This document shows positions 13,952 through 56,539 of a DNA stretch of 64,000 nt, in pieces. The number at the start of each line of letters is the position of its first letter. Position 1 is the stretch's first letter. This DNA is from Berberis thunbergii (taxonomy: Eukaryota > Streptophyta > Magnoliopsida > Ranunculales > Berberidaceae), in contig QNQO01005797.1 of assembly GCA_003290165.1 (NCBI GenBank), positions 372,001 through 436,000 on the forward strand, written 5' to 3'. A program made the translations under genes and the position numbers. The notes under the pieces were generated by a model. It was not told the origin of the DNA. It ran no database searches and was given only the letters and a program-made list of their open reading frames with translations.

Positions 13952-14032
13952 GTTGTTGAGGTGTCCACCTCCAAAACTGGCAAGCACGGTCATGCCAAGT
14001 GTCACTTTGTAGGGATTGATATATTCACTGCA
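13952..14032 (+). pseudogene. Captured exon fragment of translation factor eIF5A
   Basis: After an AG acceptor at 13950-13951 the frame reads [20 protein letters not shown] then GIDIFTA, 27 codons. This is the hypusine-loop segment of eIF5A, the factor that helps ribosomes through difficult peptide bonds; the lysine normally converted to hypusine lies in the [10 protein letters not shown] motif and is kept. The match stops after GIDIFT, where the family continues with KKLEDI-type sequence, and a TAG follows shortly. The fragment is plus-strand, sense with respect to element A. It is too short to be functional alone but could be spliced into a transcript. Confidence 0.9.
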
Positions 14033-14305
14033 TTGTAGTTTAATTTGACGTTTGTTCCAAATTTTAAAAGCATCTAAAATAGGATTGTTTTTGTAGCCTC
14101 CCTAAATATTCATGTATGTCCTCTAGAGTGGTACGTCAAAAAAGGTGATGTTTTCTTCTTTGTCTAATACTCTATTTATTTATTTTATTCTCTATACCAA
14201 AACTAGTAGGCGCTTGGCTAAAGTTGTGTTTTAAGATCTCCATTAGCTATTTACTTAAAGCAAATATGTATTACTGATGTTAAGATTATGAATCTATGGT
14301 CACAG

Positions 14306-14424
14306 GCATAGAGCTGATTCTTAACACTACAATAGTAAAAGTGAATCTTGCTGCCAAGACTCTTAGAAGTTCATTTGGAACAATCTTCAAGTATGATGTC
14401 TTGATCATTGCAACTGGTTGTACA
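14306..14424 (+). pseudogene. Captured exon of monodehydroascorbate reductase (MDAR)
   Basis: One exon with an AG acceptor before 14306 and a GTAAGT donor after 14424. It reads [20 protein letters not shown] and [13 protein letters not shown]. This matches the FAD/NAD-binding part of MDAR, an ascorbate-recycling flavoenzyme, where the family has the pattern TEIVKADLA...KTL...FKYQTLIIATG. No neighbouring MDAR exons are recognised, so it is an isolated captured exon between an eIF5A and an SNF2 fragment, in the sense orientation of the element. Confidence 0.85.
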
Positions 14425-14596
14425 GTAAGTATATGAAATACTTTAAAGTTAACACTTCTAGTTCCTCTTATTTAGTTTTCCTCCTCTGTTATGTATGTTA
14501 AGAATGATCATTTGCTGAAGATTGATCATGTTATCATGCATCTTTTACATTTAATTCTATTTCCTGTGCTTATTGGTTACCAACCTATGATTCCAG

Positions 14597-14670
14597 GGCC
14601 TTTACTTGTCAAGTTCGACCTGGATCACTTTTCTACGAAGTGGGTGATGCAGAACTTTTTGCATCTTGGG
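14597..14670 (+). pseudogene. Exon-like open segment of unknown origin
   Basis: Bounded by a CCAG acceptor and a GTAAGG donor, the segment reads FTCQVRPGSLFYEVGDAELF then ASW in one frame. The splice-site bounds and non-repetitive composition suggest another captured host exon, but I do not recognise the parent gene. It sits between the MDAR and SNF2 fragments with the same orientation. Confidence 0.4.
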
Positions 14671-14780
14671 TAAGGATCGGGCTCCTAGGTAGAGTGAGTT
14701 TTGGTTTTGGTTTTTTTTTTTTTTTTAATCTCCTATTATGCTGTCAATATATGTTATATTCTGCATACTTGTGGATGCAG

Positions 14781-52632: not shown

Positions 52633-53340
52633 CACTACACCAAAAACCCCCATTAGCAACTGTTCTATACCGTGGGCGTAACCCATTGTCACGGCTAAAG
52701 CCGTGGGCTACAGAGGCGTCACGAAATTCTTTGTAACGGCTATAAACAGTTGCTAAACATTGTAGCAACGGTTTTTTTCTTGAACAGAAGTGGTGATTTT
52801 CAGCATTTAGCCACGGTTTGAAACCGTTGCAACAACAATAGCAACGGTTTTTAGCCGTGGCAAAAATAGCCACGGTTTTAAGCCGTGATAAAGTATGGCT
52901 AATAGCAACGGTTATAAACCGTGTCTAACAAGGTCGCAACGGTTTTAAGCCGTGGCTAACCATGGCCACGGTTTTAAGCCGTGGCTAAACAGTGAAAAAT
53001 AAACCGTGGCTAACAAGGTAGCAACGGTTTTAAGTTGTGGCTAACCCTAGCCACGGATTTAAGCCGTGGCTAAACAGTGAGAAATAAACTGTGGCTAACA
53101 AGGTAGCAACGGTTTTAAGCCGTGGCTAAACAGTGAGAAATAAACCGTGGCAAACGCGATAGCAACGGTTTTTAGCCGTGTCTATTCATGGCCACAGTTT
53201 TAAGCCGTAGCAACTTATGAAGAACGCCCACGGTTCCTAGCCGTGGCAAGATGCAACTACGGTTGTAAGCCGTTGGTAGTTAAAACAAAATTCAAAAAAA
53301 AAAGAAATTTGTTTTGTTGCAACAGTTTGAAACCGTTGCA
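52633..53340 (-). repeat. 3' subterminal palindrome array and TIR of CACTA element C
   Basis: Roughly twenty units of the CCACGGTTTTAAGCCGTGG type in tandem, some in higher-order repeats of about 70 bases containing CTAAACAGTGA(A/G)AAATAAAC (52986-53160, three copies). The first ~300 bases align closely with the inverted 3' end of element A. Confidence 0.92.
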
Positions 53341-54943
53341 AATTATATAATCGAAAAAAAATTACAATTTTTTTTTGCTGCTGCAGCAAAATCACAGCCG
53401 TGGCACCTGCAAAATCAGTCCTTACTATGGTATGTGTCATGCCTCCGGCACGAATAAGATTCCACAAACTATATGCTAGATAAATACAAAATCAACCGTA
53501 AAAAGGAACTTCTCAAGTTTTGACGCCAAACAAAAACATGTAAACAAATTGCACTAATGTACAATAACAGGATTAACCTGAACAAATGGAACTTTGTTAT
53601 ATCATGTTTCGCTCGCATCTAAAACAAAAGAATTTCTCTATGTTTTTTCCAACAATACAAATCCACCTAGTTATAATGTAAGAAAATACATTGATGCCCT
53701 TAGGAATAGGCCCCATTTCTTTCGGTAGTTGCTTGTTCAATATACTGAAAATGAAAATGATGATAACACTGGCAGCTCTTTGGAAAATTTATCATTCTCT
53801 GAATCTTGGTAATCAGACAACCTTCCCAGCTTCCAATCAATGAGAACACCATCTCCCCAGTATGAAACAACCACTTGAGCTGAAAAAGAAACAAGGATCA
53901 CCTGTTCAATTCATTACAAGTGCCAAATCCCACAGAGTGTAAAAATCATCAAAATAGAATATGAAAAGATAAACCAAAAACCCATCTCAATATATCAACT
54001 CTATCAAGTTCAAAGACCTACATGAACTGAATAACGAAACCGCATTGAAGCTAAAGCAGATGAACAATCGCAAACAACGGAAAAAAAAAGTGCTAAAGAT
54101 GCAAAAAACAGTAAAATTTCATATGTATGACAAATATGGGAACATGGTTATGCGGCACCATTGAAGATCTATCAAAGAAACAGAAATAAGAAAACACAAA
54201 CAGATATAGCTTCACATGTAGTTTACCGTGTTACATAAACATTTACAAACCAATCCATCACCAGCAAATTACCTGATTGATCAAGAACTCTTTTGAAAAA
54301 TAACATTAAGCGTCTAACGTCTTCAAAATTCAAGGACACATAACTAAGGTTAAAATACAAACACTAATGACTAATGAAAAAATGAAATTGAAGATTTCTC
54401 TCAAACGTGAAAGATATCCTCAATAGGGCAAAACTTATCTTGAATTCTTAAGTGAGTTTGGTGCTTGGCCTTTAGTAACTTTCAACATTTAATCAGAGCA
54501 TACGAAACGAGTTGTAATACACAACAAGTCTTGCTCTTCCTATATTTGAAATTTTGAATACATTTAGAAAGATAAAGCTAGAACAAAAAATCCCCATGGA
54601 AGTGCAACAAACAACTTGACATAGTGCCCACTGAAGTCTAATTCAAGGAACCACTAAATTTACAGAAGGTGATTGAGCTGTACATAGGTATTACCCATTC
54701 ATATTTGCATACAAAAGCACATACAAGTAATTTTTCAATGTATATTAGCATAAACTAGTAATAATTGCTAATAGTGTAAAAACATCCGAAGTTGTAAACA
54801 CTAGTGGTATTTTGTTAATGTGAAATGAACAAAATAAAGGGCAATTTGTGCGCGGTAACTTAAAAGTTGTGGAATTGAATTTTTTGATTCACAAAACCTA
54901 CAAATATTTACATTGGTCTCAACAGATGGAAGTATGTTCATAC
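53341..54943 (-). other. Interior of element C with one unidentified exon-like segment
   Basis: Mostly AT-rich. On the minus strand at about 53735-53884, after a TTTTTCAG acceptor, a frame reads QVVVSYWGDGVLIDWKLGRL then SDYQDSENDKFSKELPVLSS. It has exon-like composition and could be another captured exon, but I do not recognise the parent gene. Confidence 0.4.
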
Positions 54944-55450
54944 CTGTCTAAGACGCAAAAGCTGCAAGATAGTTTTGCTCTTTGGATCCATGGCATTGAT
55001 ACTGAAAATACACAACATGTCAGCATTAACAACAATCTACCTAACCAAGAAGATAAAATACAGTAGACATTGACTGCAGGAAACATACCCTCGGATTCGG
55101 ATGATAAACAACAACTTAGCTTCTGGGTTAACATAGAACCCTCCCTTCAACTTAGCCTCACGCTTCAACCTGATCAGCTCCTTTTGCTAAACAACAGAAT
55201 TCATTTTATTAATATCACAAGTACCACACAACAAAAACACACCATATTTCAACTGAAATACAAAACAAATTTTTGTTACCCGCTCCTCGTACTCAACAAC
55301 ATACTTTTTAGCTATGCTGAAGATAATCTTGCGGTTCTCAGCATTCTTCTTCTTAGAAGCCTCCGTTTCCTGCTTCTTCACAAGTTCCCACTCTTCAGCC
55401 CTCTTCTGCTTTTTCAAGAAGGACTCGGGAACGACGGAGTCTACCTTCAT
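54944..55450 (-). pseudogene. RPL7: Captured 5' half of a ribosomal protein L7 gene (RPL7, uL30)
   Basis: Start codon at 55450. Exon 1 (55450-55280) reads VVPESFLKKQKRAEEWELVK then KQETEASKKKNAENRKIIFS and VVEYEER. Exon 2 (about 55190-55089) reads [20 protein letters not shown] then [13 protein letters not shown]. Exon 3 (about 55003-54944) reads INAMDPKSKTILQLLRLRQ, ending at a GTATGA donor. These are consecutive N-terminal exons of the cytosolic 60S protein L7 with usable splice sites; the rest, from the IFNGVF-type exon on, is missing. It lies in element C in the same orientation as the transposase. Confidence 0.95.
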
Positions 55451-56245
55451 GTCCTCACCAATCTCTCTCCCTCACTGCACAACAAATTCAAAACATCAAT
55501 AATTGAATCAGTAAACAACTAAACCATTGTTTGAGATCCTCTACAGTGTTACAAACAAATGGGTCAATAAAACCCTCAATGGGGCTAAACCAAAACAGCC
55601 AAACCTTACAAATAGCTCCACAAATCATAAATTGAGTACTTTTAAGAAGGTAAATCAAACCCATCAAACACTCAAATACTGCATCACATGTTCAACCCCG
55701 AACCCAAAATTGGATACTTTTACACTAGGGATGAAGAAATCAAACAAATGGGTATTCAAAAACACCCATTACAAATCCAAACAAAAATCAAGTTCTTAAT
55801 TTGGACTGAAGCTTCAGAATAAAGTATAGAGCCAAGCAAAGCTATGCACCTTCACAAGTACTTGCCACAATTACCTGCAATTGTCAACCAAGCAAAGTTA
55901 GCTTTTATAGCTTGACAAGAAGCTCAAACCAATCATGCATTCGAAGAAAAACAAATGCTGGAAAAATTAAGTTTTGTTAGTCATAAAAGTTATCATTTAA
56001 CTTTTCCATTTCCAGTCACTCTGAATCTCCACTGTGAAAGACGTCATTCAAATTGAATTACTAGTTTGAAATCAAGTAATAAACAAAGATTGCTGAATTT
56101 CATTGACATACGAGACTTTTGCAACATTTTCAAGCAAAGACTAGGAGCATTTGAGGAAGTTGTTGACAGATGATTACAACTCACCAGGTTACAAATTCAT
56201 CGCAAGTCACTTACCGAAATAAAAAAAGTTGTGATGCATGCACAA

Positions 56246-56539
56246 TTAACTGAAATGCTCAGGGTTTTCCCTACTTTGAATTAGAGGTACCCAATCTTGT
56301 CTCCAAACTACTCGCTCTTCACGTAGTGCAGAAGCTACTTCTATATACAATTGATGTTCCTGAAACCGATTATCAAAGGCAGAAACGTTGATTCATTAGT
56401 GGCACATTATATTTTTGCGCATATTTAACAATGATGCGAGCAACCAAATTTAGAAAAGTTAATCTATGTATAATTACCTCTTGTAGCACCCTCGCAGCCA
56501 ACTCCTCTGTTGTGTCATTTGCCAGTACAGGTACAACCC
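56246..56539 (-). pseudogene. Captured 3' end of a GAR transformylase gene (PUR3, phosphoribosylglycinamide formyltransferase)
   Basis: Exon about 56539-56478 reads VVPVLANDTTEELAARVLQE with a GTAATT donor. Exon 56359-56246, after a TTTCAG acceptor, reads EHQLYIEVASALREERVVWR then QDWVPLIQSRENPEHFS and a TAA stop. It matches the C-terminus of plant PUR3 (purine biosynthesis, plastid), where the family has EEHQLYVEV..AL.E.R..WREDGVPLI. The N-terminal and catalytic regions are absent. Confidence 0.88.

Follow-up and report, generated by a model that had tools for sequence, protein, structure and literature searches.

Recognisable host gene pieces in a CACTA transposon family of Berberis thunbergii point almost exclusively the same way as the transposase gene

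The 64,000-nucleotide stretch of the Berberis thunbergii genome analysed here (the window; bases 372001–436000 of contig C5782 in a 2.24 Gb genome assembly) contains three DNA transposons of the CACTA type, termed A, B and C, in which pieces of host genes are embedded. Recognisable host pieces in these elements and in further elements nearby were found almost only in the direction of the transposase gene: a search of both strands against Pfam gave 15 host-type genes on 149 sense open reading frames (ORFs) against one on 136 antisense ORFs. We consider the sense bias of host pieces very probably real in the CACTA family of A, B and C, and hold it less firmly for a second CACTA family, seen here as one element (D) with three located genes.

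Judged by their end sequences, the three elements fall into a single CACTA family of the En/Spm type. CACTAC termini lie at 19703, 29727, 38296, 52633 and 69379 (window coordinates, used throughout unless the contig is named), with CACTACACCAAA at 19692–19703 forming the terminus of A, and short subterminal repeats run in both directions as ACGG/CCGT arrays at the element ends. The right end of A is an inverted match to the left end of C (90.7% identity over 356 bp), the left end of B matches the left end of C directly (70.7% over 362 bp), and the 5´ ends of B and C are alike and unlike the 3´ ends. The transposase of C is encoded on the minus strand, with Transposase_21 (E 1.2e-81) at 62096–62959 and DUF4218 and DUF4216 adjoining. 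The strand of this transposase together with the matching ends makes the plus strand the sense strand of A and the minus strand that of B and C, as the initial annotation had proposed; it had also considered that the terminal alignment of A or B might be reversed, and the end comparisons confirm the directions it gave. Host gene pieces of unrelated origin lie inside the element ends, as in Pack-CACTA elements.

The family is large, with 2,786 exact copies of a 35-bp 3´ terminus in the assembly (1,472 forward and 1,314 reverse), while the reversed 35-bp pattern, used as a control, did not occur at all (0 occurrences). The end of C is 100% identical on two other contigs and the assembly seemingly holds some regions twice, so that the number of distinct elements is lower than 2,786. 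The Tpn1-type end CACTACAAGAAA is not more frequent in the window than expected by chance.

Since the sense bias was first noticed on A, B and C, the fair test lies in other elements. In 227 kb fetched around the window we found four further members of the family, E1 (contig 274099–284387), E4 (contig 521447–533639), F0 (contig 540249) and F (contig 543970), the last two with the 5´ end only and running rightward, as well as D (contig 346275–369335; L024, L011, L010), the element of the second CACTA family. The direction of E1, E4, F0 and F was taken from end sequences, with which the transposase domains in E4 and F concur, and that of D from its transposase. Transposase_21 was found in C, F and D; E4 has only Transposase_24, a match (E 2.6e-5) that falls short of the Pfam cut-off. 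Target duplications of 3 bp flank B (CCT), C (TTC), E1 (TGG), E4 (AGA) and D (ATA); a single end each was seen for A, F0 and F. Two candidates, G (contig 330094–334330) and H (contig 336689–342713), look like CACTA elements of other families and were left out, their direction being unreadable.

For the two-strand count, ORFs of at least 60 amino acids, taken from stop to stop and with low complexity dropped, were compared with Pfam on both strands at E ≤ 1e-3. The interiors had been chosen as fragment-bearing (13900–19300 in A, 30070 to about 37700 in B and 53300–58000 in C); E1 and E4 were covered nearly whole, D from contig position 359200 on, and F0 and F minus their transposase genes and ends, and new interior stretches of three copies of C (L032, L039 and L041) were also scanned. 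Three low-complexity ORFs of B were removed by eye from the antisense list of the window. This resulted in 39 + 82 + 28 = 149 sense and 33 + 74 + 29 = 136 antisense ORFs.

The sense genes comprise aldose epimerase, BT1, L30_N, SNF2, Na_sulph_symp and proteasome in A, B and C, and Cu-oxidase_3, PP2C, protein kinase, MatE, CRM1_repeat, 3Beta_HSD, WASH-7, O-FucT and malic in the new elements; for the set of 82 sense ORFs the best 25 of 50 families were listed, the remainder having E > 0.01. Left out of the sense set were Transposase_24, additional families (MFS_1, Pkinase) matching an ORF that had been counted once, matches with E > 1e-3 and the coiled-coil families DUF3450, TMF, HAUS1 and FPP. 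The sole antisense match at E ≤ 1e-3 is a zinc knuckle (zf-CCHC, E 8.4e-4) in E1 (L031:9202–9399), which scores 19.8 bits against a Pfam cut-off of 20.8 and was retained as an exception. The next-best antisense match in the new elements has an E value of 0.003, and the 33 antisense ORFs of at least 60 amino acids in A, B and C gave a best E value of 0.012. Pfam-supported sense pieces are present in each of A, B, C, E1, E4, F0 with F, and D, the latter carrying MATE, PP2C and multicopper-oxidase pieces that are all sense, and the antisense match is confined to E1.

A ratio of 15 to 1 has a one-sided binomial probability of 2.6e-4, and the elements that the initial annotation had not seen, with nine sense genes against one antisense match, give 0.011 on their own; its view that random capture directions would be very unlikely to produce the pattern is thus upheld, and the T-skew described below agrees. 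At E ≤ 1e-4 the count is 13 to 0 (1.2e-4; new elements 8 to 0, 0.004), and at Pfam's own cut-offs it is 11 to 0 with a one-sided probability of 4.9e-4 (7 to 0 and 0.008 in the new elements), a count for which bit scores were known for all sense genes except CRM1_repeat, and on the antisense side for zf-CCHC and the first member of A1 only. The ORF carrying CRM1_repeat (1.7e-8) was not located, and removing this gene leaves 14 to 1 (4.9e-4; new elements 8 to 1, 0.020). Three of the 15 sense genes (aldose epimerase, proteasome and 3Beta_HSD) are below Pfam's own cut-offs.

Could the bias be an artefact of recognition, because exons stand out better on one of the strands or because the end of A or of B was read backwards? 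The interiors were chosen as fragment-bearing, only the 3´ side being used in C and D, and some sense ORFs were picked by eye. Single sense ORFs picked in this way had Pfam support at E ≤ 1e-3 in 4 of 10, 6 of 10 and 3 of 10 cases, the others being weak or without match, and shorter sense ORFs tested singly on the sense strand alone, with matches for eIF5A, an oxidoreductase, ZZ and OST48, stand outside the count. However, the same interiors were scanned alike on both strands, both ends were checked in B, C, E1 and E4, and the strand of the transposase was read in C, E4, F and D. We therefore regard such an artefact as very improbable.

A few independent captures, inherited together and counted repeatedly, might likewise give a one-sided result by chance or shared descent. 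The best matches to the 3´ end of C were tried as an independent sample, and the ten fetched of 40 scored places (the C of the window being among the 40) all turned out to be copies of C whose bodies are largely alike, so that copy number inflates naive counts; these copies were left out of our counts apart from the new interior stretches. The sense genes below Pfam cut-offs and the unlocated CRM1_repeat also lend this explanation some weight. Against it, the genes that were counted differ between A, B, C, E4, F0, F and D, and matches between elements above 150 bits are limited to ends, 5´ regions, transposase, one stretch common to C and E4 and three short modules. With the counts of 11 to 0 and 7 to 0 at Pfam's own cut-offs in addition, we consider chance or descent an improbable source of the bias.

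One of the copies of C, L039, contains an insert of 1.49 kb (L039:1952–3441) with an OST48 piece in sense, flanked by two GGGAAG, and here the states before and after a capture are visible. Another, L041, has an insert at 544–2090 (sense coordinates) with inverted ends, AGGGGTGGGC...GCCCACCCCTA, between two copies of the 9-bp repeat CTTGCAGCT; these features suggest that it is likely another DNA transposon.

A line of evidence that needs no gene names comes from base composition. On their sense strand, the introns of plants are rich in T. Within the fragment-bearing interiors, 86 of 95 windows of 500 bp have more T than A when read in the sense direction (A 9/10, B 15/15, C 8/9, E1 17/18, E4 9/11, F 15/17, D 13/15), compared with 193 of 350 in the rest of the contig. 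These interiors were chosen by hand and the skew could stem from the elements' own sequence; among 26 control blocks of 6 kb, 4 reached a skew of 0.077 in one direction or the other. Taken as a whole, D has a T-skew of about zero because its 5´ part is A-rich.

Three modules are shared between elements above 150 bits, with lengths of 324 bp (A and B), 473 bp (D and E1) and 414 bp (A and D), and they lie at differing positions in the elements; a collinear stretch of 290 bp common to C and E4 may reflect shared descent. All four stretches have the same relative orientation, and no match in opposite orientation was among those listed. The four elements with transposase domains (C, E4, F and D) have their Pfam-supported host pieces on the side of the 3´ end, between this end and the transposase region, a result for which both sides of the transposase were scanned in E4 and F and only the 3´ side in C and D.

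These observations bear on a directional capture mechanism, in which gap repair in an excised or broken element would be primed from the 3´ side and switch template to transcribed genes, using either their displaced coding strand or their nascent RNA, and so leave all pieces in sense. Such a mechanism would explain the near-completeness of the bias, the host pieces on the 3´ side of the transposase, the uniform orientation of three modules at different places and the sense OST48 insert between its two GGGAAG. It requires a strand asymmetry that the present data do not show, and the position behind the transposase may also reflect the need to keep the transposase, as well as the uneven scan. 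In Chenopodium CACTA elements, moreover, captured pieces are described on the 5´ side in the available part of the account (PMC8978399). The grapevine CACTA element Cactavine-5 resembles our elements in having its host piece downstream of the transposase gene but differs in that this piece, from a PPR gene, is antisense and present in two copies (PMC2528002, as far as available); the sense rule is thus not general for CACTA elements, this being a counterexample from another family, and E1 has its one antisense match. We see directional capture of this kind as quite possible, if on balance doubtful. The broader proposition of one-way capture, that host DNA is copied only along the direction of element transcription by strand-specific template switching onto transcribed genes, we regard as possible and slightly more doubtful still.

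Of the two causes that the initial annotation had suggested, a directional mechanism and selection against antisense pieces, we favour the loss of antisense captures, with directional capture a close second. That antisense captures arise but their elements are lost has, in our tentative judgement, somewhat less than an even chance of being correct. En/Spm elements are transcribed from the 5´ end while they are active. Host pieces would enter the elements in either direction, and an element with an antisense piece would then produce RNA antisense to a host gene that is functional and often essential; such RNA could pair with the host mRNA and feed the silencing of both host gene and element by small RNAs, and introns lying in reverse might contribute stray RNA-processing signals. 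A sense piece, read as normal exons and introns, would do little harm, and over many rounds only sense arrays would survive and multiply. The captured pieces include housekeeping genes (eIF5A, RPL7 and the proteasome), which we count in favour of loss. The grapevine antisense PPR piece, reported in two copies, would be expected under such loss if a harmless target or a low copy number is tolerated.

Several points weigh against the loss of antisense captures. The majority of plant transposons stay silent for the greater part of the time, so that loss should be leaky, yet the bias is near complete. Non-autonomous elements move without a transcript of their own. The three shared modules are co-oriented, which a filter acting through antisense RNA demands only if they come from transcribed genes, and an antisense match does exist, in E1.

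The initial annotation had recognised twelve host fragments in A, B and C and placed all of them in sense; eight of the twelve are supported by Pfam at E ≤ 1e-3, and all eight lie on the strand it gave, although three of these (oxidoreductase, proteasome and aldose epimerase) stay below Pfam's own cut-offs. Of the other four, PUR3 matches weakly (0.036), and AMP1, ACBP and ClpB3 were named by reading. The host fragment array of A occupies 13952–19240 on the plus strand, with Pfam matches on this strand and none on the minus strand. It begins with an ORF stretch for eIF5A (13901–14035; PF21485, E 1.1e-15), a pyridine-nucleotide oxidoreductase (MDAR) fragment (14284–14433; PF07992, E 5.4e-4) and an ORF stretch for a SNF2 ATPase (14698–15120; PF00176, E 2.4e-10). 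An AMP1-like fragment (16148–16300), without Pfam or PDB match, is followed by an ACBP4/5-like fragment (16440–17604) with three exon stretches and introns kept, in which AG/GT exon borders were read and Pfam gave weak matches of coiled-coil type only, while a PDB sequence search gave no match. The introns kept in this piece point to genomic DNA or unspliced RNA as its source rather than spliced mRNA. The array ends with the module common to A and B (17986–18309, 91.7% identity) and a folate-biopterin transporter (BT1; FBT) fragment (18796–19164; PF03092, E 4e-17), all on the plus strand, as are the 3´ subterminal repeats and terminal inverted repeat of A at 19185–19703, of which 19349–19704 is the part matching the 3´ end of C.

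The 5´ end of A was not found in the 34 kb leftward, allowing up to two mismatches in 13 bases. A stretch of 414 bp at 11227–11631 is 89% identical to contig 364594–364997 inside D, in the same relative orientation; it lies to the left of the start given above, so that A may extend further left. A Copia-like frame, recognised by reading, adjoins the 3´ end of A on the plus strand (19702–22818). Its 5´ part was not noticed on the other side of A, so that on the left A may be very long or have undergone rearrangement.

Element B is complete (29727–38296, minus strand, 3´ end left and 5´ end right, with CCT on both sides). From left to right it carries, all on the minus strand, a ClpB3-like fragment named by reading (30272–30571; no Pfam or PDB match), a proteasome beta (PBA1) fragment (31765–31995; PF00227, E 1.6e-4, just under the Pfam cut-off), the module that A also has, in matching relative orientation (32640–32951), a fragment of a DiT1-like dicarboxylate transporter of the Na/sulphate symporter type (33889–34113; PF00939, E 5.2e-10) and two ORF stretches of glucose-6-phosphate epimerase (aldose epimerase, 36235–37050; PF01263, E 2.7e-5 and 2.1e-5, both below the cut-off). 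On the 5´ side of B (38174–38296) a second CACTA terminus is located 111 bp inward of the outer one.

Element C is likewise complete, reaching from 52633 to 69379 on the minus strand with TTC on both sides; the window holds 52633–64000, its 5´ end lies outside, and the element continues beyond 56539, where the region initially annotated ended. All on the minus strand, its 3´ subterminal repeats (52633–53360) are followed by two ORF stretches of ribosomal protein L7 (RPL7; L30 N-terminus, 55040–55471; PF08079, E 2.9e-12 and 7.4e-5), a PUR3 (GAR formyltransferase) fragment (56376–56597; PF00551, E 0.036 only) and the transposase region with Transposase_21, DUF4218 and DUF4216 (60055–62959).

Further pieces named by reading and left uncounted all lie on the sense strand of their elements: TOPLESS- and JAZ-like in E1, transportin-like in E4, GDPDL-like in D, and ATR-, SKOR- and RGG-protein-like in F. 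The name HAC1-like for a piece in E1 is based on the ZZ match (1.8e-4). A PDB sequence search with the ACBP-, ATR-, ClpB3-, AMP1- and TOPLESS-like pieces gave no match for four of the five and two weak RACK1 matches for the fifth.

Between B and C, direct repeats of 1 kb (43979–44991 and 49468–50478), 93% identical and 5.49 kb apart, enclose Copia-like frames on the plus strand (by reading), the pattern of a long terminal repeat (LTR) retrotransposon. A cluster of direct and inverted repeats of about 190 bp, partly palindromic, is located at 25749–26870, and a minus-strand open frame of 746 codons (1581–3821) reads as a PPR gene. In the whole genome 33 matches to the SUN domain (PF07738) were found. 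About 20 are partial stretches that stop at profile position 126 and often lie in a frame of 107 amino acids, perhaps an amplified captured piece.

That CACTA elements carry host genes is already well known from Tpn1, Tgm-Express1 and the wheat elements, as far as the respective accounts were available. Tpn1 of Ipomoea nil shares with our family the CACTA type, subterminal repetitive regions, 3-bp duplications and interiors replaced by host gene DNA, and yields chimeric transcripts; it differs in having 339 non-autonomous copies, against the 2,786 exact 3´ termini found here, and no orientation rule was found in the available part of its account (PMC5105172). The soybean CACTA element Tgm-Express1 similarly holds five unrelated host pieces with introns, which are spliced as exons of one pre-mRNA and must therefore all be co-oriented; unlike our case it is a single element, the word "orientation" is absent from the text available, and the accessible part does not relate the pieces to the strand of the transposase (PMC1947982). 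By analogy, it shows that fragment arrays like ours can be transcribed and spliced, a point in favour of the loss of antisense captures, as are the chimeric transcripts of Tpn1. For CACTA elements of wheat chromosome 3B, 140 capture events are given in the part available (PMC4290129).

Pack-TYPE elements, including Pack-CACTA, are likewise non-autonomous DNA transposons carrying host coding DNA; a survey of them describes the orientation of non-autonomous elements as hard to define (PMC8903248, as far as available), and no test of such an orientation bias was found in the accessible parts of this literature. ULP-carrying Mutator-like elements (MULEs) also have a host domain on a DNA transposon but, in the part of the account available, in both orientations (PMC2528002). 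No statement of an orientation rule for CACTA elements was found in the literature searched, which mostly excluded subscription journals and was accessible in part. Gene transduction by LTR retrotransposons is different, being RNA-based, whereas here a DNA transposon is involved and introns are kept in at least one piece. For maize Helitrons a sense bias has reportedly been observed.

It is well known that plant transposons capture genes, but not by which route the pieces enter. An orientation rule that is nearly complete strongly constrains this route, since it separates strand-symmetric from strand-asymmetric models of capture. The many copies in this genome would allow the rule to be followed across ages and copy numbers, and directional capture to be told from loss of antisense pieces. 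Arrays of exons and introns in sense also lend themselves to splicing into new chimeric transcripts, as the available account of Tgm-Express1 illustrates. If one-way capture were true, each element would be a row of co-directional exons and introns, and CACTA transposons would be exon-shuffling machines with a built-in orientation.

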